Shown in pieces: positions 3,403-29,027 of a stretch of DNA of 64,000 bases; within the stretch, counting starts at the first letter, position 1, and every line of letters starts with the position of its first letter. Location: contig JAMXDE010000062.1 of assembly GCA_026770025.1 (NCBI GenBank), forward strand, positions 1-64,000, read 5' to 3'. The translations under genes and the position numbers were made by a program. Below the pieces are notes generated by a model, which did not search any database, was not told the DNA's origin, and saw nothing but the letters and a program-made list of their open reading frames with translations. This stretch comes from Craspedostauros australis. Taxonomy: Eukaryota > Bacillariophyta > Bacillariophyceae > Mastogloiales > Achnanthaceae.

Positions 3403-6400
3403 ATGGAACGTCCTTTCCTCGGTTAAGACCGATCGTTACATGATCATGTTCGACGGCAAGCGATCCTCCTGGAAAGCTTGGAGTGCGAAGTTCCTTGCCC
3501 GCGCCAACCGCAAGGGTTATGGAGACTTGTATCTCAAGGACTTGGATGAAGTGATTGTGAAGACCGAGGCTTTTGACCCTCTCCTCTCGCCTCCATCGCG
3601 GGAAGCGAAGAGAAGAAGCTTAAGGCCTCGAAGTTATCTGCCATGTCTCCCGACGAGAAGGCGGAGTACAAGATGGCTTCTGGCCAAGTACGCGTTTGAA
3701 GAACTGACCATGGCAATCAACCATGAAACTACCAAAGGCGATGTCGCCTTCATGGCTGTGTTGGGATGCGAGAGCAACATCTACGAGGGAGGAGACCCTC
3801 GTAAGGCGTGGAAGGCTCTCGAGCGCATCTACGAGCAACGCACTGCGCCAATGAAGGCAAAGCTGTTGGCTCAACTCAACGGGATGCGATTGAAGAAAGG
3901 CGAACACCCGGATACCTTCCTCACCGAAATGGAGGTGATCCGTAACCGCCTCAAGCACGCGGGAGTTAAACATGGACATGGGAGCTGTACCACATGCTCG
4001 TGCTCAACGCTCTCGGGAGGGACTACAAAATGGATGTGAAGCTCATCGAGCTCAAGTTCGAGAACATCGAAAAGCAGATGACTATCGAAGACATCCGCGA
4101 AGCAGTGAGTGCAACCTACGACGCACGTCACATCAAGCAAGGAGGTAGTAAGCGCGAGAACAATAGCAAGGAAGAAATGGCTCTCGCCGCCACTGGTGGC
4201 TTCAAGGGCCACTGCCGCAACTGCGGCGCCTACGGGCACAAGAAGGCAGACTGCCGCTCTGCGCCTAAGAACAAAGGTGGCAAGCCCACGAAGAAGAACA
4301 AGAGAAGTGATACTGAGGACAAGACCAAGTTCAGCGGAAACTGCAAGTACTGCGGTAAGAAGGGACACAAGATCCTCGAGTGCTTCAAGTTAAAGGCAGC
4401 GATGAGAGCAGCCGACGCCGCCAACGTGGCCACCGACGGTATGGACGGAACAGACGACGTCGCCCTCGTGATGGTCGAGGAACCGATGTGGCTACCCGAA
4501 GACGCCGCAGCAGACAACGCCGCGTTCGTCGTGGTAGACGAACCCATGTGGATGCCCGCTAACGACGAAGAAGACGAGATCGGTCTCGTGATGACCGATG
4601 AATCCATGTGGTTGCCCGACGAAGACAAGTCGGCCAACAACGAAGAATTGGTGTGTTTCCCCATCGACGAGCTCGAAAACGACCCCGTTGAGGTCAAAAA
4701 TGTGACCAACCCAAGAATCGTGACAATCGACGAAATCACGAACATCAAGAAAAAACCAACAATCAACACCACCGACATGGCGCACTACGAGTCGTTCATC
4801 GACGACATGGCCCTCGCAACCACCGACGAAGACATGACCGGACTCGACCTCGAAGAAGAGGTCGAGTACTCCGAAGAGGAACGAGAGGCCCACACCCCGA
4901 GTGTGTACGGATACTACGGACCCCCAGTAGCTGCAGTTGAGACCATCAACCGCGAGCACTTCCCATCAAGCGACGAAGACGATTACACCGACGAAGACAA
5001 CCTCTTCGACGGGATCGTCTACGAGGATGAACCCCTCAACGTCGGGGACATCATGGAGAATGAAGTAGCGATGCCTGGAGTCGACCATCGCGTCACCTCC
5101 ACCATCTACTCTCGAACCGAACCAAGGACTCTGGTCGATCGAATGATCGAAGAGTCGTCCCGCAACGGAGGAAGCACCGCAGGATGGTGCCCGCTGTGCT
5201 TTCAGCGCGGCCCTCTCTACGCCATGTGCAAGACCTGCCGTAACTCGCCGTTCCTCATTCAACTGGCAAACCCCCCTGCAAGGGCGGCGCCAACAACGAT
5301 CCAAGACATCATGACGCGCCGCCAGAAGCTCTGGACTGCAGGACCTCTGCATGTCGCAATGAGATACTCTCTCAGCAACATGATGGTTGCTGATGAAGTG
5401 CGCTCTGAGCTCGCCCTACTGTGCTTGCGACGCGGCGAACGCGTACACCGAAGGAGGAGGAGAAAGCCTGAACCCTCGCACGCTCTACTACATGATGCAC
5501 CGCATCGACGTGTTCACGCCAATGCAATTGGTGCAAGCCGTGCAACACATTAACCCAAGACTTGAAGAACTCAACCTGCCACCCATCCACAGAGGGCTCA
5601 TCGACAGCCTGGTCCAGCATGCCGCAGAGATGCTGATGTGGATGCATCATCCTGGAGACCAAGGGGTCCGAGACCCAGAGGAGTTCAACCAGCTCCCCAT
5701 CTACCGAGCCGCCGAAGCTCAACCAGACATGGCCATGGTGATCGGTGACCTCGGCGATGCAAGCGCACTCCGCCACACCATCGCCCCCGACCACCACGAA
5801 GCAAATACGTGGCTGGGTGACTCCGGTGCCTCATGCCACCTCACCAATAGCGAAGAGGGAATGATTAACGTGCGAGTAGCCAACCACTCCATCAAGATCG
5901 GCAGCGGCCGATACCTCAAGGCAACAAAGGTTGGCGATAAACGCATGGTCGTGATGCAGAAGAACGGGAACCAAGCTACCATCGTGCTCAAGCAAGTGAA
6001 GTTCGTGCCCAACCTGTGGGTGAACCTCTTGAGCATCAACAAAGCTCTCGAGAACGGCTTCGACATCAGCAACCAAGGTGTCGTGATGAGCTTGGAGAAG
6101 CGCGGGCAACGCATTACGTTCGACAGACTCATGGCAACCCACAGCGGTTTCGTGAGTGGAGTGAACATGATCAGCGCCCCTCCCCACGAGGACCAAGCCA
6201 ATGTCGGCGTGTCCACCGGGTCCGCGGTGGACATCAACCAAATTCATAAAATGTTAGGCCATGTTGACACTTACACGATCTCTCGCACAGCGGGACGATA
6301 CGGTTGGAATGTCACAGGCAAGTTGCATGCATGCATTGACTGCGCAATTGGAAAGCAGAAGCAGAAGTCAATGACAAAACGCCTGCAGCGCCGAGCAAAG

Positions 6401-9360
6401 GAAATTGGTGAGCGGTTGTTCATTGACACATCGAGTGTTCAAACGCACAGCTACGGACAAGGAAAATATTGGCTCCTTGTCATCGATGATTACAGTGATT
6501 ACTGCTGGAGTTACTTTTTGAAAGAGAAAAGTGAAGTCGGAGAAAAGCTGATCACGCTCCTCCGATGGCTTCACTCCAACCAACAGGCACATGTGAAAAA
6601 TATCAGATGTGACAACGCGGGAGAGAATTATGCCGCGGAAAAACAGCTTCTCAGCGCAGGATTCGGCCCAACGTTTGAATACACCGCCGCTTCCACTCCC
6701 CAACAGAACGGTCGCGTGGAAAGAAAATTCGCCACGTTGTACGGGAAAGTCCGCTCCATGCTCAACCAAACGCATCTACCCAAAACAGTGCGTGGAAAAT
6801 TGTGGGCGGAGGCAGCCCGAACCGCGACTCAGCTCGAAAATATTATCGAGACGAAAACAAGAGAACCAGCATGTGTTCTCTTCAACAACCGCATCCCAAC
6901 ATTCGTGGATGGATTACGAAATTCGAAGAAATAGGCATGGTATACATCGGCGGTCGTACGATAAAGGCTAAGCTGGACGATAGATCCAGACCAGCCATGT
7001 TCGTCGGCTACGGCCAATCGCACGCGAAAGGAGTATATCGAATGCTGAATCTCGCTACAACCAAAATCCTAATCACGAGAGACGTGACATGGATGAATCA
7101 GTCATACAGGCAATTCAGAGGTATCGAGAATGCCAACAGATCTGTGCTGATAGATCTAGAAGATGACAACTCTACGTCGGGTATGAACACCCAAGCTACG
7201 AGAACAACTTGGGAGCGACGATCGGAGACCATCAAGAGCATGGAGGCCGACGACGCGGATCGCAGCAGCAGAGCCGAAGAAATAGAAGATACTGAAGACG
7301 CTGCGCGAGGGCAAGATAGCTTGCTCCCTGCCCAAGGGGAAAATGAATCGAACGAAGAGAACGACAATGAATTCGGAAGGGACGACGAGGGGAAAGTAGA
7401 CGAAGCGGCCGAGAGTGAGCCCAAAGACACCCCTGTCGCAGAACCTGTAACACGCATGCCAAGGATGCTGAGCGCTCTCGCCGGGTATAACAACGACCCA
7501 ATCCCAGAGGAGGAGCGAGATCTCGGATCAAGTGATGAGTCAGAACCTAATGACAGCGAGGGATATGTGACGCCCGAAGAGACCATCACAACTCCACTGG
7601 AAACAGGAGGACCCAACTTCCACGCAGACGGGTCAATATTCAACAGAGATATCGCAGGTACGATGATAGACACACCTCATGGAATGACGAGACTAGATGA
7701 CATCATCGCTGCGGACCAGGCATTGAGAGACGAACGAAATGAAGGAGGGGCAGAACATGCGAATGTCGCTATGCTGCTGGACCCCACCACATTCGAAGAC
7801 TGCTGGGACCATGCGGATCCCAACAAAAGAAAGAAATGGCGCGAAGATATCAACAAAGAGTTCTATGATATGGCCAGAAGGAAAGTATGGGAGAAGATCA
7901 AGAAGGACCAGATGCCGAAGGATCAGCGGTGTGTGAAGACCAAATGGGTCTTCAAGGAAAAGAGAAATGGGGTATTCCGCGCCAGACTCGTGGCATGCGG
8001 ATACTCGCAAATCGCAGGAGTCGACTTCTCAGCACACCACGCGCCAGTGATACATGATGCAACATATCGAATCATGCTCACGATGAAGATGATACTACAC
8101 ATGGACAGCATCATCATCGACTTTGAGACAGCATTCCTGCATGGAGACCTCGATGAAGAGATCTACATGCAATGCCCAAAGGGTATGAGGCACGAAGCCG
8201 ACGAATGCCTGCTACTCAAGAAAACCATCTACGGCCTCGTGCAGAGCGCGAGACAATGGAATAAGAAGCTCGTCGACATCCTACTCAAACTAGGGTTCAG
8301 ACAGAGCGAGGTGGACCCATGCCTGCTGATTCGGAATCAGGAAGGGAGACTGCTACTGATCGGCACCTATGTGGACGATTGCCTCTGCATCGGAGAGGAG
8401 CAGGAATTGAAAAAGCTCGTGAAGGATATCCGAGCAGAACGATTCGGTGTCAAAGTGGAGGAAGATCTCGAAGACTACCTGAGCTGCAAGATCATCTTCA
8501 ACCGCGACAAGACGAACTGTTGGGTGAACCAACCACACATCCTGAAGAACATCATCGATACGTTCGGAAGCGATGTGGTGAAGCTGCAACGATACGGAAC
8601 GCCTGGGACACCAGGGCAAGGCATCCAAAGGCAAAGCGATGCACCCAAAGTGGACAAGCAACGACACAGCAGATACCGAAGCGGAGTAGGTATGCTGCTA
8701 TACCTGGTGAAACACTCTCGACCCGACATCGCCAATGCAGTGCGAGAACTGACCAAGGTGTTGGATGGACCAACAGCCGCAGCATACAAAGAAATGCTTC
8801 GAGTCATGAAGTTCGTATGGGACACGAGAGAGTATGGACTGAAGATGAAACCAAGTCCACTGACCCAAGATGCATGGAAGATTGCAATATACACCGACAG
8901 CGAATTCGCAGGTGACAAGGACAATCGCATCAGCGTAGGAGGGCACATCGTCCTACTACAAGGAGTGCCGATCATATGGAGATCAAAGGCACAACGCAGC
9001 GTAACACTCAGCTCGACGGAAGCAGAGTACGTCGCCCTGTCGGAAGCAGGAAAAGAAATTCGCTTCGTAACACAATTGATGAGTGACATCGGACTGAGGA
9101 TGCACAAGCCGGCAGACGTAATGGTTGACAATGTTGGAGCAATCTTCATCGCGTCCAACCCATCAACATCCGCCAGGACACGGCACATCGACATCCGACA
9201 TCATTTCATTCGAGAACTGATTACAAATGGAGAGGCCAGAACCAAATTTGTGCGTTCTGAAGACAACATCGCAGATGGCTTTACGAAGAATACCAAAAAG
9301 GAGACCTATGAAAAACACAGGGATCACTACATCCAACTGCGTTCCACAATGGATCAGTGA
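3403..9360 (+). pseudogene. Gag-Pol polyprotein of copia element B, broken by frameshifts
   Basis: Domain order is that of copia: Gag (from the ATG at 3403), two CCHC knuckles (about 4216 and 4342), a long acidic spacer, protease (GDSGASCHLTNS near 5815), GAG-pre-integrase and integrase (LFIDTSS near 6417; CDNAGEN near 6610; TPQQNGRVERKF near 6697), reverse transcriptase (KWVFKEKRNG near 7940; YVDDC near 8370) and RNase H (TDSEFAGDKDNRISVGG near 8890). The frame changes near 3424, twice in a compensating way between about 3580 and 3665, and near 3980, 5428 and 6920; from 6940 to the TGA at 9360 it is open. Extra bases in short homopolymers explain several breaks. Other ORFs in the window are long and open, so real decay is likelier than sequencing error. 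Confidence 0.87.
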
Positions 9361-14370: not shown

Positions 14371-14394
14371 TGTTGGAATGTGCATATGTACATG
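14371..14394 (+). repeat. Left fragment of an older copia-like LTR (D)
   Basis: The sequence starts TGTTGGAATGTGCATATG at the break in the GT61 pseudogene and is interrupted after 24 bp by element C. The rest of this LTR resumes at 22329 with the repeated TACATG. TGTTGG here and CCAACA at 22977 form the terminal inverted motif expected of an LTR. Confidence 0.65.
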
Positions 14395-15189
14395 TGTCGA
14401 GATGTACATGTGAGTATATGTCAAGATGTACGTGTATATGTGCATCGTTCACCCGCTATTCTCTCATACGCACTTGGACGGTATAACTATACTCGTGTCG
14501 ATAGTATACTGTGATTCGTCAGAATTACAGGGGAAATGGAACACACGAAAAGGGGCAAGATTTCTGGAGGAAATTTGCAAATAACGATTTCTGAGAGAAT
14601 CAGAAGATCGTCCGTCCATGCATCAATGGTACCAAGAGAATCTCGAGGTACTTCCCAACTAAACCTCAGATGACGATATCATCTGACAGACTACTGCATC
14701 ACCAATGGAACGTGACATCTGGAGAGCAGAAGGACGTCTACTGACGTCGACAGGATGTCAACATGTCACCACGTCGACAGCTGTCTCCAAGTCAGAGCAG
14801 GAGGCGAAGATACGATGACCCATGAAGATCATGGATACTGAAGGTGAACTTCAAATGGTAAGTACTCATGGAGTAGAAGCCAGTACCGAATGAACGGAGT
14901 GTCGAATGCGGAGCACGCATCGAACACGGAGTATCGTGTAGCACGAGCACACGATAGTGAGAGAGAGAGAGAGAGAGAATACAGAGAGGAGCGAGAGAGG
15001 ATCTCGCGTACCGACTCATAGTCGGAGACCGAATCAACAAAACAGATTAAAGCGCCGAGAGCATCGGGCAAGAGAACAAACGGACACCAAGAGTATCGGA
15101 GTGCCAACGTAATGAAATAGCAAACAGACGACTATCAACCAACACCATCTTCCACGATCGCAGGTTACCGTGAGCGAAACTTGCCAACA
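14395..15189 (+). repeat. 5' LTR of copia element C
   Basis: A 795-bp direct repeat of 21538-22328, starting TGTCGAGATGTACATG and ending TTGCCAACA. Its first 50 bases hold a degenerate internal duplication (TGTCGAGATGTACATG and TGTCAAGATGTACGTG). A GA microsatellite lies near 14961-14979. The LTR should carry the promoter and polyadenylation signals of the element, but no TATA box can be assigned with confidence. Confidence 0.93.
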
Positions 15190-15271
15190 CGTTTATAAAC
15201 AATAGATCAGGGCGAGCCCGCGAATCGTATCGTGCGAGGAAGACGAACATCATTCAAGAGCAGCAGGCTGA

Positions 15272-18200
15272 ATGAGCGAGGAAGAGGAATTGAAAGAGAT
15301 CCCTCTGTCCAATCCGACTATCAAGAGAGAAGAAGGTTCAAGTGAGACTCCACCACGACAAGAGAAGGAAGCAGCCGCGGCTACTGTCCTATCAGGCGCA
15401 GACGCAAGCGCGATCGACGAGACCGAAGAAGAACGGTCTGCAAGACTACATCGTAAGGAGAAGAGGATTCTCAAGGCGATCAAGCAAGAGGAGACTGGTG
15501 TGACGAAGAGCATTCGCACAGCCAAACAGGGTGGGAAAAGTGAGACACCACCAGGAGGAGAATTTGTGACGAAAACAATCTCCGCGCAACAACAGGCGAA
15601 AATCGAAGAATCGGTAACACAGAAACCGACGGAAATCAAGGGCGCGAGCGCACCAACGACGAAACAACGAACCAACATGGCGACATCAGCCAACATGAAC
15701 AAGCGACGCATCAAAGCGCCGATGTTCAGCGGTGAACAGGAAGACTACAGCGCATGGGAGTCCCAAGCGAAGGCATACGCTCGCGCACAGAAGACGAGAG
15801 ACGTGATGTTGGGCAAAACCAAGGTGCCAACAGTGAGCGAGATCGCGGCAGCCACCGATGAAGACAAGGAAGCGATGGAGGAGATCTACGAGCTGGGATG
15901 CGACTGCTTCAGCGATCTGATCCTCATGATGGATGCAGAGAAAGGAAAGGGTAAGCAGGCCATCCAGTACATCAACCAATGCATCTCCGACGACTACCCC
16001 GAAGGAGACGCACACGGAGCGTGGAACGTTCTCGCGGAGAAGTTCCGACCATCCGACGCGGTGACGAAGATCAAACTCAAGCGCCAATTCAACAACGAAA
16101 AGATGAAGAGAGACACGGACCCCGACATCTACATCACGCAACTCGAGAGTCTACGATCGCGTCTCCACGATGTCAAGTATGAGATCTCGGACGAGGAAAT
16201 GATCATGCAAATCCTCAGCACGGTGAGCGTGGAATACAAAACCCACGTCGTGAACTTCCAACACCAACTCACGTTCAATCCGGAACTGGTCACCATCAAC
16301 ACGATCAGAGGAGTACTCCGTACTGCATATGCCACCCACAGAGGAGGCAAGGCATACGTCGATGACTTCCAAGACAGCAACACGAAGAGCAACGACACCG
16401 GCTTCACAAGCACCGGTAACTTCAAGGGTACTTGTCACAACTGTGGCGTGTATGGCCATAGATCCGCCGATTGCCCAGAACGCAAGAAATCGAACAACAA
16501 GAAAAACAACAACAACAATAACAAGATGAACGGAAAGCGCAACAAAGGAAGCGGCTTCAAGGGCAAGTGCAACTACTGCGGCATCTTCGGACATCGCGAG
16601 GCAGAGTGCCGAAAGAAGAAGTTCAACGAAAGCAAGAAGAACAACGAACAAGCCAACGCGGCTACGGAAGGACACGACAAGAGCGGGCACGAGATGGTAC
16701 TCTCAGCAAAGGACATGCCGCTCTGCATGTTGGTGTCCGACGACTACATCGAAGACTCCTTCTTCGATAACTTCGAATACGTCGGGAGTGACGACGAAGT
16801 GCAGGATGATGAGATCATCCCGGAGTGGCTCAGCGAGGAGCCAATCATCCACGAGGTGGATCCAAGACGCGAAGTGAGCTACGAATGCTGCTTCAACGCG
16901 CACGACCTGATCGGTTCATACGGCGACGAAGCTGAGATGGACGACGAGGCCAACGATAGCGATATCGAAGAGGCCATGAGCGATGACGACGACGACGCCG
17001 ACGAGAACGGCACAGATGAAGACGAAGAGGTGAACCGCGACGAGTTGCCTCCTCCTCAAGCTGGGAGATACGAGAGAACGGGAACCTTCATCAATCAAGG
17101 CGAAACGCGCCGCGCCGCGGCGCCGCCTCCTCCAGCGGCGGGGAACAACAGATCGGGCATCTTCGACGAGGATGACAGCGACGAATCCGAGGACAGCAAT
17201 CATCCAGACGACAGCTTCAATCCAAACGAGCGTGTCGTTTACCCAGGGAATATCGACTTCCCACCAATCGAGGATCCCAACAGGTCCAACTACCTCCATC
17301 GTCATGACACCGTCCCATATGCAACAGAGACAGCATTGGTGATCCAGAAGCAACTCATCTTCGATGCAGTGATGGAAGCAGGAGTGAGCCTGTTCCCAGG
17401 AATCGAACGAGGAGTACTCAGACCAATATGGGTCAACATGATGGGATCGATCCTATCCGAGAACTTCAGATCGATCGAAGAGATTCTCACTAATTCGGTT
17501 GTGATCAATCGCATACTGGAAGCAGTCGAGACAGAGACAATCCCAGAGACAGATCTTCATTACATCCTTGGAGGATGTATGCGCGTACTCTTACGCGAAC
17601 GACCACGCGTCAACCCATACGATCCTGTTACAGGATCACATCGAAACAGCACCATTCCATCGGACTACGCACAACTACCCGATGACATGGATGACGGAGA
17701 TCATCATCCTCCATACAACGAAGATGGAGTTCACGAAGACGACGACGACGGCAGCTTCGACGACGAGATAGCTGCAGCAGCTGTGGAGCAACTCCACGAG
17801 CTGAGCACCAAGTATAAGGACAAAGTCAACAAGGACACCTGGCTCGCCGACAGCGGAGCTTCGTGTCACATTGTCAACTCGGACGCCGCTCTCTTCAACG
17901 TGCGGCACATCAAGTCCTTCGTCCAAGTGGGAGACAGCACGAAGCTGGATTCTCCCAAGATGGGATCCATTCGCTTGAAAGTCAAGCAACGAAACAACAC
18001 TGGCCACATCATCCGGCTCGATGACGTGAAGTACACACCGAAAATGGCGGTGAACCTTTTCTCCACGAACAAGGCTCTGTACAACGGTTACCAGCTTGGT
18101 AACAATGGCATTCTGATGGACATCATCAACGGATCCGGAATGAAGATCGTATTCGACCGAGTCTTCCCCACATCCAACGAATTCATCACGGGAGTGCAGA

Positions 18201-21200
18201 TGCATCCCATCATGCCAACTGACGACGACAAGGCTTGCACAGCCATCGTCAAGAATCCATCCAAGGAGATCAGCGCGGTGAACCTGCACCGAATGCTTGG
18301 CCACGCGCCACTCGAGACCATGAAGCGGACGGCCGCTCAGTACGGATGGAAAACCATCGGCGAGATGCCAGTGTGTCGCGACTGCGCGGTCGCGAACGCA
18401 AGAGTGAAGAATATTCCGAAGGCAACCATTCCAAGAGCCACTCGCCGCGGCGAACGGTTCTTCATTGACATTAGTTACACTAAACACATAAGCTTCGGAG
18501 ATAAACGCTACTGGACCCTGATCGTGGACGACTGCACCGATCACTGCTGGAGTTTCTTTCTCAAGAACAAGAGTGATCAACCAGGATACATCAAACGATT
18601 CGTTCAAACAATCAAGTCACAGACTGGTGACCAACAGATCACCTTCCGAGGTGACAATAGCGGAGAGAACAAATCCACGCAGGATATTCTCATCGATGCA
18701 GGACTCAACGTGAAATTCGAATACACGGCATCGAACACACCGCAACAGAACGGCAGAGTGGAACGCAAGTTCGCGTACCTCTACACCAAGATTCGCTCCA
18801 TGCTCAACGGAGCACAGCTCGACGAAGAGTATAGACATGGCCTGTGGGCAGCAGCTGCTAGCACTGCCACCGCCATCGCCAATATCACCGTAGCGAAGAA
18901 CCAGAAGGAGTCACCACATCGACAATTCTTTGGCAACGATCCACCATATGCAGATGCACTCCGTACATTTGGAGAAGTGGGTGTTGTGAAGACTACCTAC
19001 GGCGGGATCACCGCCAAACTCAAGAATAGAGGAGAAGAGATGGTGTTCATTGGATATGCACACCAACATGCATCAAGGGTCTACAACATGTACAGACCAT
19101 CGACCAAGTCACTCATCTGTTCACGGGACATCAAGTGGCTCAACCAATCATACGGACAGTTCCGTGGCTGGGCATCAGCACCGAACATATCCAATGAAAC
19201 AGGAACAACGGACGCAGACGGCTTCACAACCATCGGACGGAAGGGAGCAACGCCAAGGACGGCAACGCGTCAAACATCGGAAGCGAAGAGAGTATCTTTC
19301 GCTGACAGCAACAGGTACTACATCCTATCAGACAGCGATGATGAGGATAATGAGGACGACGGAGTAGTGACTCAACTAATCCATAACGACGAGGAAGATC
19401 GGAGCGAATCCAATCATGAGGATGACGAAATCCTACCCTCCGGCGACGAAGCCGATGACGAGACAGGTGTTACCCCTCCGAATACACCAGCGAAGTCTAC
19501 ACATGACAGTCCATCCAGATCTCCACCAAGCAAACCAAGCAAGCGTGACATAGCTAGAAAGGAGAGGATCCGACGTCACGAAGCACGAGGCAGGAAGGGA
19601 GAAGCTAATCCCAAGTCAACGGCAGGGAAGAGTATTCCCAGAGCTCTACGCGAGCTCGCAGACTTCAACGAACCAGGTCGAAAGGAAGAAGGCTATGAGA
19701 GCGATCCATCATCCAACGAGGCGAGTGACGAACTCAGCGACGAGATGATCGACGACTCCAACAACGAAACTACAGATGATGAAGAAATCGAAGACGAAGA
19801 TGAAGAGATCGAGATCACTCACCATAGCACAACTGGATTATACGGAATGAATGCAATCATCACCGAATCACCAGCGATCGACATCGGACTGTCGATGCAG
19901 GACAAGAACAAGGAACCAGAGAAGCACATCGAACCTACAACGTTCGACGGAGCCTTCAATCACCCAGATCCTATCCATCGGAAGGGATATCGAGCAGCCA
20001 TCAAGAAGGAGTTCCACTCCATGGATACACGCAAGGTGTATAGCAAGATCAAACGAGACGCCATCCCACGCGGCCGCAGATGCTGCAAGTGCAAATGGGT
20101 CTTCAAGCTGAAGCGTGACGGCACACATCGAGCACGGCTCGTTGCATGTGGCTATTCACAAGTCGCAGGAGTAGATTTCCAAGAGCATTACTCACCCGTC
20201 ATCCATGACGTGACCTATCGGGTCATGATGGTGATCATGCTAATCAAGAAGATGGACTGCGCACTCGTCGATGTCGTAACGGCATTCCTACATGGAGACC
20301 TCGACGAGGAGATCTACATGAACTGTCCCAATGGGATGGATCATCAACCAGACGAAGCCCTGACCCTACACAAGCCAATCTACGGACTTGTGCAGAGCGC
20401 CAGGCAATGGTTCAAGATGTTGGTATCGACCCTCAAGAATATCAGCTTCGAACAGAGCGCAGCAGACCCGTGCCTGTTCTACAGGAAGACGAACGAAGGA
20501 AGCATGATCGTGGCCATCTACGTGGACGATTGCTTCTGTTGCGGAGACTCCAAGGCACTGGAGACCTTCCTGAAGGATATCCAAGACAGCAAATTCAAGG
20601 TGACAATCGAGCGCGGACTCGGAGACTACCTCAGCTGCAACATTGAACTGAACCATGACAAGACTAGAGCGACATTGCGTCAACCACATCTCATCCAACA
20701 CCTCATCGAAGAATTCGGAACCAAGGTTGAGAAGATGCAACGCTATGGGACACCGGGAACCCCGGGTCAAATCATCGTACGACCATCCGAAGATAACGGA
20801 CTGCAGAAGGTCGGACCGGAAGAACATGCCGAATACCGCCGAGGCGTCGGTATGCTACTCTTCCTCATCAAGCACTCGCGACCAGACATCGCGAATCCTG
20901 TGAGGGAACTCTCCAAGGTATTGATCGGGCCCACCAAGGCCGCAATGAAGGAGATGTATCGGATCATCAAGTATGTGATCGATACAAAGGACTATGGATT
21001 GAAGATCCATCCAGCGCGTCCAGATGACGACGGCTGGGACATGGAGCTCTTCTGCGATAGCGAATATGCAGGAGACAAGAACACAAGAATCAGCGTAGGG
21101 GGATTCATCCTGTACCTGTGCAAGGTACCAATCCTTTGGCGATCCAAGGCACAGAAGGCTGTCACACTCAGCTCATCCGAAGCAGAATACGTTGCCCTTT

Positions 21201-21517
21201 CCGAAGCGGCAAAGGAAATCTTCTTCGTCATGCAGCTACTCGAAAGTGTGGGCATCCCAGTGAAGACACCGATCAAGGTCCGTGTGGACAACGTCGGAGC
21301 GATCTTCATCGCCAAGAACCCATCAACATCCCAACGATCGCGGCACATCGACGTGCGCCATCACTACGTGAGGAACATGGTAATCAACAAAACCATCGAA
21401 ATCATTTTCGTCAAATCCGAGCAAAACACAAGCGACGGATTCACCAAGAACATCAAGGCCGACTTACAACGTGAACATGAGAAGTCGTACCTTGACACAT
21501 CGAGAACATTCGAATGA
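15272..21517 (+). CDS. Gag-Pol polyprotein of copia element C, uninterrupted
   Basis: A 2081-aa single ORF starting at the first ATG after the 5' LTR. Order: a charged N-terminal extension (1-130); Gag core (about 135-370); CCHC knuckles CHNCGVYGHRSADC (about 388) and CNYCGIFGHREAEC (about 432), joined by an Asn/Lys-rich linker; a long acidic spacer; protease (LADSGASCHIVNS, about 858); GAG-pre-integrase (HRMLGH, about 1004); integrase with FFIDIS, RGDNSGEN and TPQQNGRVERKF supplying the D,D,E triad; an acidic linker; reverse transcriptase (KWVFKLKRDG, about 1607; YVDDC, about 1749); RNase H (CDSEYAGDKNTRISVGG, about 1926; SSSEAEYVALSEA). Gag and Pol share one frame with no recoding site, so the Gag:Pol ratio must be set another way. 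All catalytic motifs are present. Confidence 0.95.
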   Translation: MSEEEELKEIPLSNPTIKREEGSSETPPRQEKEAAAATVLSGADASAIDETEEERSARLHRKEKRILKAIKQEETGVTKSIRTAKQGGKSETPPGGEFVTKTISAQQQAKIEESVTQKPTEIKGASAPTTKQRTNMATSANMNKRRIKAPMFSGEQEDYSAWESQAKAYARAQKTRDVMLGKTKVPTVSEIAAATDEDKEAMEEIYELGCDCFSDLILMMDAEKGKGKQAIQYINQCISDDYPEGDAHGAWNVLAEKFRPSDAVTKIKLKRQFNNEKMKRDTDPDIYITQLESLRSRLHDVKYEISDEEMIMQILSTVSVEYKTHVVNFQHQLTFNPELVTINTIRGVLRTAYATHRGGKAYVDDFQDSNTKSNDTGFTSTGNFKGTCHNCGVYGHRSADCPERKKSNNKKNNNNNNKMNGKRNKGSGFKGKCNYCGIFGHREAECRKKKFNESKKNNEQANAATEGHDKSGHEMVLSAKDMPLCMLVSDDYIEDSFFDNFEYVGSDDEVQDDEIIPEWLSEEPIIHEVDPRREVSYECCFNAHDLIGSYGDEAEMDDEANDSDIEEAMSDDDDDADENGTDEDEEVNRDELPPPQAGRYERTGTFINQGETRRAAAPPPPAAGNNRSGIFDEDDSDESEDSNHPDDSFNPNERVVYPGNIDFPPIEDPNRSNYLHRHDTVPYATETALVIQKQLIFDAVMEAGVSLFPGIERGVLRPIWVNMMGSILSENFRSIEEILTNSVVINRILEAVETETIPETDLHYILGGCMRVLLRERPRVNPYDPVTGSHRNSTIPSDYAQLPDDMDDGDHHPPYNEDGVHEDDDDGSFDDEIAAAAVEQLHELSTKYKDKVNKDTWLADSGASCHIVNSDAALFNVRHIKSFVQVGDSTKLDSPKMGSIRLKVKQRNNTGHIIRLDDVKYTPKMAVNLFSTNKALYNGYQLGNNGILMDIINGSGMKIVFDRVFPTSNEFITGVQMHPIMPTDDDKACTAIVKNPSKEISAVNLHRMLGHAPLETMKRTAAQYGWKTIGEMPVCRDCAVANARVKNIPKATIPRATRRGERFFIDISYTKHISFGDKRYWTLIVDDCTDHCWSFFLKNKSDQPGYIKRFVQTIKSQTGDQQITFRGDNSGENKSTQDILIDAGLNVKFEYTASNTPQQNGRVERKFAYLYTKIRSMLNGAQLDEEYRHGLWAAAASTATAIANITVAKNQKESPHRQFFGNDPPYADALRTFGEVGVVKTTYGGITAKLKNRGEEMVFIGYAHQHASRVYNMYRPSTKSLICSRDIKWLNQSYGQFRGWASAPNISNETGTTDADGFTTIGRKGATPRTATRQTSEAKRVSFADSNRYYILSDSDDEDNEDDGVVTQLIHNDEEDRSESNHEDDEILPSGDEADDETGVTPPNTPAKSTHDSPSRSPPSKPSKRDIARKERIRRHEARGRKGEANPKSTAGKSIPRALRELADFNEPGRKEEGYESDPSSNEASDELSDEMIDDSNNETTDDEEIEDEDEEIEITHHSTTGLYGMNAIITESPAIDIGLSMQDKNKEPEKHIEPTTFDGAFNHPDPIHRKGYRAAIKKEFHSMDTRKVYSKIKRDAIPRGRRCCKCKWVFKLKRDGTHRARLVACGYSQVAGVDFQEHYSPVIHDVTYRVMMVIMLIKKMDCALVDVVTAFLHGDLDEEIYMNCPNGMDHQPDEALTLHKPIYGLVQSARQWFKMLVSTLKNISFEQSAADPCLFYRKTNEGSMIVAIYVDDCFCCGDSKALETFLKDIQDSKFKVTIERGLGDYLSCNIELNHDKTRATLRQPHLIQHLIEEFGTKVEKMQRYGTPGTPGQIIVRPSEDNGLQKVGPEEHAEYRRGVGMLLFLIKHSRPDIANPVRELSKVLIGPTKAAMKEMYRIIKYVIDTKDYGLKIHPARPDDDGWDMELFCDSEYAGDKNTRISVGGFILYLCKVPILWRSKAQKAVTLSSSEAEYVALSEAAKEIFFVMQLLESVGIPVKTPIKVRVDNVGAIFIAKNPSTSQRSRHIDVRHHYVRNMVINKTIEIIFVKSEQNTSDGFTKNIKADLQREHEKSYLDTSRTFE

Positions 21518-21537
21518 CCGAATGCACACAGGAAGGG

Positions 21538-22328
21538 TGTCGAGATGTACATGTGAGTATATGTCAAGATGTACGTGTATATGTGCATCGTTCACCCGCT
21601 ATTCTCTCATACGCACTTGGACGGTATAACTATACTCGTGTCGATAGTATACTGTGATTCGTCAGAATTACAGGGGAAATGGAACACACGAAAAGGGGCA
21701 AGATTTCTGGAGGAAATTTGCAAATAACGATTTCTGAGAGAATCAGAAGATCGTCCGTCCATGCATCAATGGTACCAAGAGAATCTCGAGGTACTTCCCA
21801 ACTAAACCTCAGATGACGATATCATCTGACAGACTACTGCATCACCAATGGAACGTGACATCTGGAGAGCAGAAGGACGTCTACTGACGTCGACAGGATG
21901 TCAACATGTCACCACGTCGACAGCTGTCTCCAAGTCAGAGCAGGAGGCGAAGATACGATGACCCATGAAGATCATGGATACTGAAGGTGAACTTCAAATG
22001 GTAAGTACTCATGGAGTAGAAGCCAGTACCGAATGAACGGAGTGTCGAATGCGGAGCACGCATCGAACACGGAGTATCGTGTAGCACGAGCACACGATAG
22101 TGAGAGAGAGAGAGAGAATACAGAGAGGAGCGAGAGAGGATCTCGCGTACCGACTCATAGTCGGAGACCGAATCTACGAAACAGATTGAAGCGCCGAGAG
22201 CATCGGGCAAGAGAACGAACGGACACCGAGAGTATCGGAGTGCCAACGTAATGAAATAGCAAACAGACGACTATCAACCAACACCATCTTCCACGATCGC
22301 AGGTTACCGTGAGCGGAACTTGCCAACA
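21538..22328 (+). repeat. 3' LTR of copia element C
   Basis: A 791-bp repeat of the 5' LTR, starting TGTCGAGATG right after the purine tract AGGAAGGG and ending TTGCCAACA. By eye it is identical to the 5' copy over roughly the first 650 bp. The differences are a GA repeat four bases shorter and six substitutions in the last 160 bp. Confidence 0.93.
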
Positions 22329-22977: not shown

Positions 22978-24079
22978 GGAGCAGGCCAAGATACTGCAAG
23001 CGGACGTGTTGACCTAGCTGGAGCATGGGACAAATATGAGGATGCATGCCTCAGGTCTGTGGCATTGGTCCAATCATCTGAAGCATCTGCACTCAGACAT
23101 GATTTACGGAAACATGTGGATGGCCAAGGAAGTGGTGTCCTGTGGCTCGAACATGCACGAGTATGCATGAGGCATGGGATCGTGGCAGGTACTTGGGAAG
23201 GATCCATCTAGACATATTCATAAGAATACTATGAATATTCAGTTGTACACATAGCACTACGAATACAACTGCTCTGCTCTTACGATGACGAACTCTCTCT
23301 CTCTCTCTCTCTGTCTGTCTCTGTCTCTCTGTTTGTATCTAGACAGGAAGGGACGAGTACGATCAACTGTTCGAACCATTCGAATACATTGCGAACCATC
23401 CGCTTGTCGAGATTTGGCATGACGTCACCGACCAGACGAAGGCGGGACTCGGATCGAGACTGAAAACTCGCGGAGGTCAGATGAATCGTGTGTCTGTACC
23501 ACGACCGAAACTGTGACCGAATGTAGTGGTCTCAATACTTTACCCCAGTGTGCAGAATGCAAGATTGAACATGACACTTGCAAACACCTTGACATTGGAG
23601 GACTCTCCATGTGTGTCCTTATGTGTTCAGATTCGGAACATCAACATTGCAATCTGTGAGCAAGATAGAATCACAGATGAATGCACCAATGGTTCCGAGT
23701 ACGAATGGGATTGCTCCATAGCCGGAAGCAACATGGATACACAAGATAAGATCAGCAGAGTGGCTGATGTACAGCACGAGATCACGATAAGCAGAGCAGC
23801 AGAGAGAGAGCAGAATCGGAAATAGAATAGCTCATAAAATTGACAGAGAAAAGGTTACCAACCCTCAACAGAAACAGTCTACTTTTACCAACAAGTCTAC
23901 AGCACCCGGACATTTCAACATCCGCTTGTCTCCGTTCCTCATTTTTGAATCGGATCGGTCAAAATGCCAGATGTAAGATAGAGCGGTGGCCACAAAAGAC
24001 CCAAATCTTTTGTGCGGTCACTGCGGACGCGTAACGAGAGTTTTCACCCAGGCATTGCGCCACGGTTTCTCTCATACTT
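22978..24079. other. Gene-poor stretch between the old LTR and DNA transposon E
   Basis: No gene is recognised. An open frame of about 78 codons (to the TAG at 23209-23211; contains GAWDKYEDACLRS) directly follows the old LTR and could be residue of that element's Gag, but I do not recognise it. A CT microsatellite with CTGT variants lies at about 23290-23335. A 9-bp-arm hairpin (CACAAAAGA, spacer CCCAAA, TCTTTTGTG) lies at 23991-24014. No GT61 catalytic half was found here. Confidence 0.5.
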
Positions 24080-24083
24080 TTAC

Positions 24084-24240
24084 GACCCAGGTGAGTGAGT
24101 CGACCAACCTTTGGTAAAGTAGAGTGGCAATTTTTCTTCGATTTCAACACAACCAAGCATATAAACCAACTTATTATAGTGTCCATAGCAACAGGAAAAT
24201 TACCCAGAAACTTAAAGTTCATAGTTTAAGTTTTATGGAC
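24084..24240 (+). repeat. Left terminal inverted repeat of transposon E
   Basis: It starts GACCCAGGTGAG and ends TTTTATGGAC and is 157 bp long, the same length as its partner. Identity is uneven: 24102-24129 (28 bp) and 24173-24209 (37 bp) match the right repeat perfectly, while most mismatches fall between them. The perfect islands could be transposase-binding sites. Confidence 0.9.
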
Positions 24241-24743
24241 CATCAAATATTTGAAGTCGTAGGGGTCAAACGTAGCCTTCCACGATGTAGTTTTCCGAAG
24301 GTTCTTTGGTGTTCCGAGTTAATAACGATTGGTGCCCATTCACGTTGGTGTCTCCAGCTTTTTCCTTCCTCCTCGTTCGTTTGGAACACGTTATACACCG
24401 TTAGCTGCTCCGGAATCGATTGACATTTTCCACTTGTGGACATCACACACATCATCACATGCGCACGCACACATCGTCGCCACGCCGACACAAAAACCGT
24501 CACATTTTTTGCTTCATTCCAAAGGTGCCTCCGCCGATGCGATGCTCGTTGTATCTGTTGTGCTGCGGTTGTAGTATGAGTAGTGAGAGCACTAGTGACA
24601 TTGGCGGTTGTTGTTCTCGCTGCTGCATCCAACACCTCTATCGGCATCACCTCCTCCACCCGCTTTGATTCCGCGTTCTACAGTGCCATTCATCGATCAA
24701 TCAATCAATCAATCAATCAACCTCCTTTGCTACCATCAACACC

Positions 24744-27700
24744 ATGTCCTCCATCCCCGCCAAAGCAACAATCAAGGGCGAAACCCCATCTCCTCGTAAG
24801 AAGCCTCGTTCCTGTGCTGCCCCTCTCGATTCTCCTTTTGATTCGGATGGCAACTTGGCACCTACTCGTGAGCAGCTGTTGCCTGACAAGCTGTCTGCTG
24901 GATTGCGGAAGCCCACTGACATCACTCACGCGATCGAGGTGAAGCCGATGCTTCCAGTGGACAGCAACCTTGTTCCAACTTTGGCGCATGTCGATGCCGC
25001 TAACTTGCGCGTTGACGTGCGCCTGTCCAGTGCGGCTGGTGTCATCTTTGATACACCAACGGTCACACTGCGTACGGTTGGACAAGGTGTTGGTGCTATC
25101 ACAGTGGTAGACATCAGTGTGAACGTGCCACCTCCCGTTGAGTCTCCTGCCAAACCAACTACCCGCGCAAGCACTGCACGACACGCAAACGCTGTCGCTG
25201 GAGGCGCTTCCGAGCAAGTTGATGTTGACAGCGACGACAACTACGTGGATGGCCGTGATCGCAGGAAGAAGCGAACAGGCCGCAACAGACTCATCCAGAA
25301 AACGGTGAGAGGATGGCGTCGCGATGCGTTGGTCCGTGTTGCAGGGTTGGTTAAGTCTGGCCTTTCTCCAAAAGTGTTCAACTCCATGCCAAAGACGGGA
25401 TTCACACTTGGTGGATCCCACAACAAGCAAGTCTGGTGCAACATCAAACGGCTGTGGGTGCCAATTGCTTCTGCGCTCTGGGATGTGTTGCTCCCAAAAG
25501 AAGCGACACCAACTGGCCAGATGCATGAGGTGGTGCATTTTGTCCGGGCAGGGCAAGCACTGCCACCACTGACGCTTGCACCAAATTTGTACCGCATATG
25601 TGTCGGAGGGAGCAAACTGATGCACCTCTGTGCGAGAGCCGTTCTTGCAGAGTCTGCATCTCCAAAAGCATGCACAGATATTCTCACTGGATACGCCGAT
25701 GGATTGCCGGAGGAAGAACGCATGCATGTACATAGCAATCGACAAACCATCACTAAAAGCCAACAGAAGACATTGCAGCGCTACTACGACATGTTGAGTG
25801 ATGGGGAAACCATTCCGCCCAAAATTCTCCAATACCGTGTGACTGCGTGTGCTTTGTCTGGTGTGGTGTCGTTTCTCTGCACTACGACCACGTACAAGGC
25901 CGGCTTGTGCCACGCAGTGGAGTGGGAAGGAGTCGTATTCGAGAAAGTTCTGGTCTTTGATCGTGGAGGCAAAAGCATCAAGGCGCTATTCGACATGTAC
26001 AAGACTACCACCACCAACCCAGTAGGCGAACCAGCATTCAAAGAGATGACGAAGCTACTAACATGACGTGGCAAAGTGAACACAGGGCTGTCTTCCTTCA
26101 AAAGCCACTTTTTGTTGGCAATGCTAACTCTCAAACGCACGATCTCGCGCCTCGTCACACTTTTGAAGGCTAAGTATCCCACAACAAACGGCGCTGAGGA
26201 CAAGAATGACATGATTTCCCGGCATTTGCGCACAGCAGAGTCTCTGTTGTACTCATTGGAGCTTCTTGTTGTCTTTGTCAAATGGGAATTCACTGCCTCT
26301 CACATGCAGATGGAGTGTGATGACCCAATGCACTCAGCTCAATTTGCGCTCACGCCCAACCAGAAGAAGAAGACAACGACGAAACAATCCCAATCAACCA
26401 GAACGCGTACCAACAAGCACAAGCTCAGGAAGAAGATCACTCAAACAAATGACATCGCTTCTGCCACCAACAACACTCCAATCATCACAATTGATATCCC
26501 TGACATCACTTGTGTGACACATGCTGCTGCCAATGACACCACCTCTGACAATAATGAACAGCCTTGCGCCACCACAGACAAACAACACACTGGAGTATGT
26601 AACCATTGTGCAGGGGTGATGCATTTTGTGGACGACCGATATGTCCCTTTCGTGACATCGCTTATGGAAGATCACCTTGCGGAACACGCGACAGAATTGG
26701 AGTCGATGCTCAATGCCGCACCGGGGTTCAACAACGAAATACTGTGGTACATGGCACACAAAGTGCGCAGCAAGGTTCAATTCGGACACATTGAGCAGTA
26801 CCTCAAAAATATCAACAACCAAGAGAATCGCGCACATGTGGTGCTGGACCACAAACAGAAAATTCTTCCGACTGGCCAAGGCGAAGCTCAACAAGAATAC
26901 TGGGGCAAGAAGGGCATGTCTCTGTTGGGTGCGATGGTGATCACATGTCACAATCACACATTCACTTATCGCTTCATCAATATCATTGTGAAGGGGAGGC
27001 CAACTCAAGACACCCTCCAAGTTGGCGGGCTTCTCGAAATTGTGCAACAACAGGTGAGAAAAATTCTTCCATCGGTCACCGACATTGTCATCCAATCCAA
27101 TAACCCGTCTTGTTTCGCGAGCCACGAGCACATCCCGCTGATCACCTCGGTGCTGAACAAGAACCTTGGAACGCGAAATGTCCCCAAGATTGCGGCCTGG
27201 ATCTACACTGAAGCCCAAACAGGTAAAGGTCGCCTTGACACGCACTTTGCGTACATCACTGTTGTGTTGCGAGCGTATGTGCTGGAGGACAACGACATCA
27301 AGACGGAACACCAACTTTTCGATGCATTGGAAGCCGGCAACATCGCAGGAACAACCACGGTTTTGGTGGATGCAGAATGTCTCGAGGGGCGTGTCCTGAG
27401 TTTCCCCGGCATGCCAAAGAAGCATTTCTGCGCGAAAGGGCAAAAGGTACGCCAAACGCACGAGGTCAAGTTCGGAGACGATGAGGCCAATTTGGTGGCG
27501 GCATCTGGCTTCACAGATGATGTACTTGTCCCATGTGTGGAGTGGGAGGAATGGGAAATCAACCGGCTGGGTGTCTGCACGATCGCAACGCACACGTCAG
27601 GAAAGGAACCGTTCACCGCCGAATCGCCAAAGAAGAAGAAGAAGAAGACGCGAAAGTGGGGTGCTACCGCGGTGGAGAGCAAGGCGCTCGTGTTTCGCGA

Positions 27701-28355
27701 TGCATTGGAGATGGGGCAAGGAGAGCTACCACACGACCACACCGCAGAATTGAAAGACCAGACCGCGGAAGCAGAAATCCCCCGACTCGCGGTGAAGGGC
27801 TGGGCAGTGAAAACAACGCGCAGCAACGCGGAGTTACCACGGTACGTACTGCAGAAATTGGATGAAATGAGCACGGCCGCCAAAAACGACCCGAAAAATC
27901 GACCAACAGAACACGAAGCGCACCGTCGACTGATGGAGCTGGAGGGAACAGAGACTGATTGGTTCACGCAATTGCACGGAAGTCCACTGCGCGTGAAATC
28001 GCACCTGACCGCGGCATACTACAGCTCACAACGCGACGCCAAGAAAACAGCCGCGGCACCAGGTACGACCAACAACAACAAAAAAACGGCATCAGGATCA
28101 TCACCATCACCATCACCAACAGCAACAGCAACTGCTATGGAACCAACAGGTACGAAACCATCAGACAAGCAGAAGAGCCAAGAAGAGGAAGAGATGGAAG
28201 AAGAGGAAAGGGAGAATAGGATGTGGTGTGAGGCCAACACCACCGGGAGGCACGCGGAGAACGAAGAGATGGTCCCGCAAGAAGTGAGGGATGCGATTCG
28301 CACGAGGATGAGACGGAGGCTGATGGCGAAAATGGAGGAACAAAATAAGGACTAA
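24744..28355 (+). pseudogene. Transposase-like protein of element E, split by one in-frame TGA
   Basis: The ATG at 24744 opens 440 codons to a TGA at 26064-26066. The same frame then continues without another stop to 28355, so the ancestral protein was probably about 1200 aa. The first half has a basic stretch (RDRRKKRTGRNRL, about 172). The second half has CNHC and a core with VVLDHKQKILP, YWGKKGMSLLG, IVIQSNNPSCF and TEAQTGKGRLD. From memory, these resemble a widespread uncharacterised DDE-type protein family whose members read 'D.K..LP...GK.G.S', 'SDN' and 'EPQ.GKG..D'. In that comparison the middle Asp is Asn here. The C-terminus is Lys/Glu-rich. Alternatives are stop-codon readthrough, or splicing across the TGA. 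Confidence 0.75.
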
Positions 28356-28475
28356 TTAATTCAAAATGTGAACAAATTCGCCAAAACCAAGAACACGAAC
28401 ACGTTATTTTGGATCCAACTTGTCGGATGTCTATCGCTCAGTTTAGGAGTAGTCCAAAAAAGTGCACATTGACAG

Positions 28476-28632
28476 GTCCATAAAACTTAAACTATAAACT
28501 TTAAGATTCTGGGTAATTTTCCTGTTGCTATGGACACTATAATGAGTAGGTTGGTATGCTTAGTTTGGTTGTAATCGAAGAAAAAGTGCCACTCTACTTT
28601 ACCAAAGGTTGGTCCACTCGCTCACCTGGGTC
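28476..28632 (-). repeat. Right terminal inverted repeat of transposon E
   Basis: The reverse complement starts GACCCAGGTGAG and ends TTTTATGGAC, matching 24084-24240 over the full 157 bp. It is followed by the duplicated TTAC at 28633. Confidence 0.9.
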
Positions 28633-28636
28633 TTAC

Positions 28637-29027
28637 GACACCCTTCTCGTGTCACACACGCTCTTCCCTTTTCTCAACGCATCTTGTCTCATCACCCAGC
28701 TGTGTTCGCACGCAAGTACATTTGCACCACCGGATTGCTTGATTTTTTCGTTCGCAGGTCGAGAGACCGAAACTGCTTTCGCTGCAGTCATCTTGCGAAC
28801 AATCACATCACCACTGACTGCCAACAATGTGCAATTGACTCCTCTCATGGCTCGCACTCGCGCTCGTACGTTTCCTGATACTCTTCGACTCGAAACACCA
28901 TCGCACGCCATTCCATTGACGGCATCGAGGTGCTGTACTCGCACCATCAGCAGCATACTCTCCTTTGCATCAGTACTCTGCTGCTGCGACGACAAGTATC
29001 TTCGAAGCATATCTCAAGAAAACGAGG
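28637..29027. other. Upstream region of the RNA methyltransferase gene
   Basis: 391 bp between transposon E and the ATG at 29028. The insertion of E placed about 4.5 kb between this segment and its former upstream sequence ending at 24079. No separate gene or promoter motif can be supported. Confidence 0.45.

Follow-up and report, generated by a model that had tools for sequence, protein, structure and literature searches.

A DNA transposon of unsettled superfamily with 157-bp inverted repeats and TA-centered 4-bp target duplications in the diatom Craspedostauros australis

A 4,549-bp segment at positions 24084-28632 of the window, the 64,000-nucleotide stretch of Craspedostauros australis contig JAMXDE010000062.1 analyzed here, is bounded by long inverted repeats and carries a coding region for a large protein. 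The segment raises the question of whether it is a mobile element, how such an element would move, and to which group of transposons it belongs. The reading favored here, with a probability of roughly 0.88, is that it is a DNA transposon with 157-bp inverted repeats and an intronless DDE/D-type transposase of ~1,200 residues, that it inserts by cutting and joining at NTAN sites, and that the window copy depends on protein supplied in trans.

Both ends of the element are placed at single-base resolution. The two-ended 157-bp inverted repeats described in an earlier note on this DNA are confirmed to the base and match each other at 144 of 157 positions in the window copy, and the TTAC duplication reported with them lies directly outside both repeats (Table 1). 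The termini of the window element read GA...TC. Related elements occur in the same genome and include family A, to which the window copy belongs and whose members are mostly 4.5–4.7 kb long (one, L017, reaches 5.7 kb), and family B, with elements of 6.0–6.1 kb and proteins 56–57% identical to those of family A. The inverted repeats of both families share a terminal block, GASCC...AGTGAGTCGACC or a near variant, as well as an inner block with the end TTTTAAGTTTTATGGAC or a near variant. Judged from sequence, these shared blocks are likely protein-binding sites.

Table 1. Coordinates of the element, its coding region and the surrounding host repeat in the window
Feature	Position	Strand	Remark
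Split host repeat, left part	23946..24083	.	LTR-like; includes the left TTAC
Target duplication TTAC, left copy	24080..24083	.	Present once at empty sites L054 and L055
Terminal inverted repeat, left, 157 bp	24084..24240	+	Begins GACCCAGG
Putative transposase frame, first open piece	24744..26063	+	440 codons; no Pfam match
In-frame TGA, codon 441	26064..26066	+	In 3 of 19 distinct family A copies, window counted
Putative transposase frame, second open piece	26067..28355	+	Holds the putative catalytic core; natural stop at end
First conserved Asp (residue 702)	26847..26849	+	
Place of second conserved Asp (residue 786)	27099..27101	+	Asn in the window
Conserved Glu (residue 823)	27210..27212	+	In motif WIYTEAQTGK
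Conserved Asp (residue 832)	27237..27239	+	Motif LDTHF; alternative third catalytic residue
Terminal inverted repeat, right, 157 bp	28476..28632	-	
Target duplication TTAC, right copy	28633..28636	.	
Split host repeat, right part	28637..28742	.	LTR-like

Copies of the element are abundant in the genome, which was examined as 74.8 Mb in 90 contigs. For the left repeat, 40 of 69 candidate matches were scored, and the second piece of the protein has 64 matches (498 candidates, 59 scored), while the motif WIYTEAQxGK occurs at 215 sites genome-wide against none for the reversed control. A pattern describing the terminal end matches 328 times, also against none for its reversed control, and this count is limited to ends whose fifth outward base is A, C or T, those with G there being missed. 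Flanking letters were read for 66 of the 328 ends. In 63 of these 66, the four flanking bases conform to NTAN, with TA at positions 2–3, and the commonest four-base flanks are ATAA, TTAT and CTAG. The three ends that deviate have no facing partner listed within 30 kb.

Target duplications are equally consistent. Adjacent facing ends within 30 kb of each other carry identical 4-bp duplications in all 20 pairs, some of which are 12–28 kb apart and may hold nested insertions; shuffling the partners yields a mean of 2.3 matches and a maximum of 10. Among the window and 25 further loci, every element with both ends placed has matching duplications (14 of 14, loci with a single end or a nested structure being left out), and duplications were also matched by eye at L014 (ATAG) and L053 (ATAT).

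The insertion site of the window copy is also found in its empty form. When the two flanks of the element are joined, the resulting sequence matches eight other places in the genome straight through the junction at 89–100% identity; of three further matches, two are the flanks of the element and one is a 39-base piece. Three of the eight empty sites were read, and two of them (L054 and L055) contain a single TTAC, with a variant of TTAC in the third (L056). For L052, joining the flanks revealed no corresponding site that spans the junction. Other copies with the same ends and 4-bp duplications, and an empty TTAC site, were what the earlier note had proposed looking for, the empty site in related strains; both are present in this genome, and its reading of the locus as a DNA transposon is strongly supported. 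That the repeats and duplication arose by chance or through misassembly is a reading of vanishing probability, ruled out by the left-repeat matches, the end counts against a control of zero, the matched duplications in both sets and the eight empty-site matches.

The flanks themselves belong to a host repeat of ~244 bp that also occurs elsewhere in the genome. This repeat appears to resemble an LTR, solo in the window, since CGTA and GAAC stand on both sides of its copies at L054 and L055, respectively (read by eye), and the distance between two copies on contig C3 is 6.1 kb. The window sequence can thus be explained as a broken transposon copy within an LTR-like repeat.

The coding region of the element extends over 24744-28355, or 1,204 codons with the end stop, and closes 120 bases ahead of the right repeat. 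It had been taken for a single long reading frame, a description not borne out in the window copy, where a TGA at codon 441 interrupts it; many other copies retain one long frame. Database searches with the protein name no family. Pfam has no credible match (best E 0.069), NCBIfam has none at all, the single PHROGs match (E 0.065) is not credible, and PDB sequences likewise give nothing credible (best E 0.75). The original assignment of the protein as DDE-like, of unclear family, stands. No relatives were found in viral contigs, prokaryote genome contigs or plasmids, collections that are poor in eukaryotes and carry little weight on this point. As none of the transposase models or solved structures searched resembles the protein, its enzyme class rests on motifs.

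These motifs are well conserved among relatives. Over 13 aligned cores, the pattern is D-x83/84-D-x35..187-E-x8-D, with two exceptions: in the truncated L063, Asn occupies the first place, and in the window copy it occupies the second. The D, D, E and D residues persist across families only 37–60% identical, and both the Glu and the last Asp are conserved at the putative third catalytic site, so that either residue could complete the triad. Since each element carries one such protein with this core pattern, a DDE/D transposase is the natural reading, and the ~1,200-residue product is most likely a transposase of RNase H type as predicted from its sequence. A structure model of 266 residues, built from a single sequence, is unusable at a mean pLDDT of 32.8, and with confidence so low the RNase H-like order of its strands and helices does not count as evidence.

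The window copy differs from most of its family at two positions of this protein, codon 441 and the second conserved Asp, whose states were determined from BLAST comparisons with every retrieved locus, overlapping loci at one place being counted as one. The stop is found in the window and in the copies at C4:1828893 and C34:328552. Decoding of TGA as a residue was set aside, as 16 of 19 distinct family A copies have no stop at this codon. The second Asp is retained in 15 of 21 distinct family A copies and replaced by Asn in six, namely the window copy and those at C4, C2:2625592, C55, C41 and C3; a separate pattern for one other subfamily returned 23 matches, all with Asp. In view of its in-frame TGA and the Asn at the second conserved place, the window element is probably non-autonomous and could be mobilized in trans only, by full-length copies at other genomic positions. 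Relative to the majority of nine other elements, it carries C-to-T or G-to-A changes at 36 of 560 C/G positions within CpG and at 21 of 1,756 outside CpG, a bias that would be expected of methylated repeats.

Comparison with the nearest copy suggests that broken copies do move in trans. Among the nine elements compared, L016 (C4:1828893) is closest to the window copy at 98.0% identity. It has both the TGA and the Asn, and its target duplication is ATAA rather than TTAC. As two copies with the same faults sit at different duplications, they are most simply explained by mobilization of a copy in which the two faults were already present, with the protein supplied from another locus. A more distant copy, L043 (C34:328552), has the TGA at codon 441 yet keeps Asp at the second position, indicating that the stop can recur, and the common TGA is therefore weaker evidence for movement in trans. 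An independent origin of the faults in the window and C4 copies is possible.

In the proposed mechanism, the transposase would bind blocks within the repeats, cut at the GACCC ends and join the cut ends to staggered cuts around a TA-centered NTAN site, and gap repair would then duplicate the 4 bp. A copy-out or other replicative route in place of cut-and-paste is improbable; it would fit the very high copy number and a relative whose core is identical at three places, and element anatomy alone cannot tell the routes apart, but cut-and-paste is the usual route of eukaryotic elements that combine inverted repeats with a DDE/D protein.

The relative in question, L058 (C14:807600-814800), is Cys-rich in a stretch close to the N-terminus, and its core of 410 residues recurs unchanged at two other places. 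Over the core, other relatives from this genome share 37–60% identity with L058, and many have long frames. The three identical cores suggest recent movement of L058; duplication by another route is also possible because the ends of this element were not found, a search for inverted repeats near it having returned none. An inverted repeat could be placed at L057, but the bases flanking its ends do not form a matching duplication.

Several other features of the genome and window were recorded alongside the element. The silicic acid transporter profile (PF03842) matches 88 stretches of the genome, of which 32 cover nearly the whole profile (from position 11 or lower to 484 or higher, counted by hand) and 28 of these 32 have no stop. 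Diatoms usually have few silicic acid transporter genes. Chlorophyll-binding genes (PF00504) are also plentiful, and the two gene families together mark the organism as a silicified photosynthetic alga, probably a diatom or a near relative of diatoms. Three transporter matches on C2 lie within 500 bp of a transposon-family end (1026697/1027174, 2625273/2625592 and 2646448/2646818), or 3 of 16 loci tested against a random mean of 0.14 (P ~0.0003), in a post hoc comparison on a partial list of ends. The window itself contains a copia-type retrotransposon at 14394-22328 with an open frame at 15272-21517 (2,081 residues) and direct repeats of 300 bp, identical, at 14394/21537 and of 230 bp, 97% alike, at 14960/22099. 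A second copia-like element lies at 3994-9360, where the frame is split, by eye, over three overlapping reading frames.

The element is classified here as a DNA transposon of unsettled superfamily. A literature search returned no recognizable description of the element family, the protein motifs not being searchable as text. Tc1/mariner elements share TA at the target center but duplicate the 2-bp TA itself, according to an excerpt of PMC10741241, against 4 bp here, and the protein has no Pfam transposase match. Kolobok and piggyBac likewise duplicate 4 bp, and the 5'-RR...YY-3' ends of Kolobok agree with GA...TC here; their target, as given in the consulted part of PMC9587614, is TTAA, in contrast to this genome, where TTAA flanks only 6 of 66 ends. 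The same part of PMC9587614 places a C/DxxH motif between the second Asp and the Glu of Kolobok. This motif, shared by Kolobok, hAT, P, MuDR and Dada, is missing between the second Asp and the last Glu in 10 of 12 aligned cores, including that of the window, and the two matches (L060 and L064) are DKKH within a variable insert.

The known superfamily that agrees best on traits, compared by description only, is Sola. Membership in this existing superfamily, as a Sola1 or Sola2 type with the same mechanism, comes close to an even bet. The portion of PMC10741241 that treats Sola gives 4-bp duplications, a DDD transposase, a size of 2–9 kb and repeats of 11–1124 bp, and the duplication, size and repeat length observed here agree. 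Duplications in Sola2 are 4 bp and AT-rich in the available section of PMC3627910, and Sola is reported, in extracts of the respective papers, from the diatom Cyclotella cryptica (PMC7466962) and, as Sola-1 and Sola-2, from the brown alga Ectocarpus (PMC12477816). The section on Sola2 also gives AWWT as the target in Dictyostelium fasciculatum (PMC3627910), which differs from NTAN here. The conserved Asp of the LDxHF motif would permit a putative DDD triad like that of Sola. Sola3 differs in its target, TTAA, as against NTAN here.

The earlier note saw here a candidate for an undescribed mobile system, a proposal neither established nor refuted in view of the outward traits shared with Sola. 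An undescribed eukaryotic superfamily is the rather unlikely alternative. It would be defined by TA-centered 4-bp targets, GASCC termini, a transposase of ~1,200 residues for which the searched libraries hold no detectable relative and in which an insert of 35–187 residues separates the second Asp from the Glu, diversification into several families in a single silicified alga, and the mobilization of broken copies in trans. The alga harbors a very abundant transposon radiation with a clean NTAN rule, and at least one relative has, as the L058 copies suggest, moved recently. Because the NTAN rule is accompanied by many long open copies, the chemistry of the family is directly testable, and should no relationship to Sola emerge, the element would represent an additional class of transposase.
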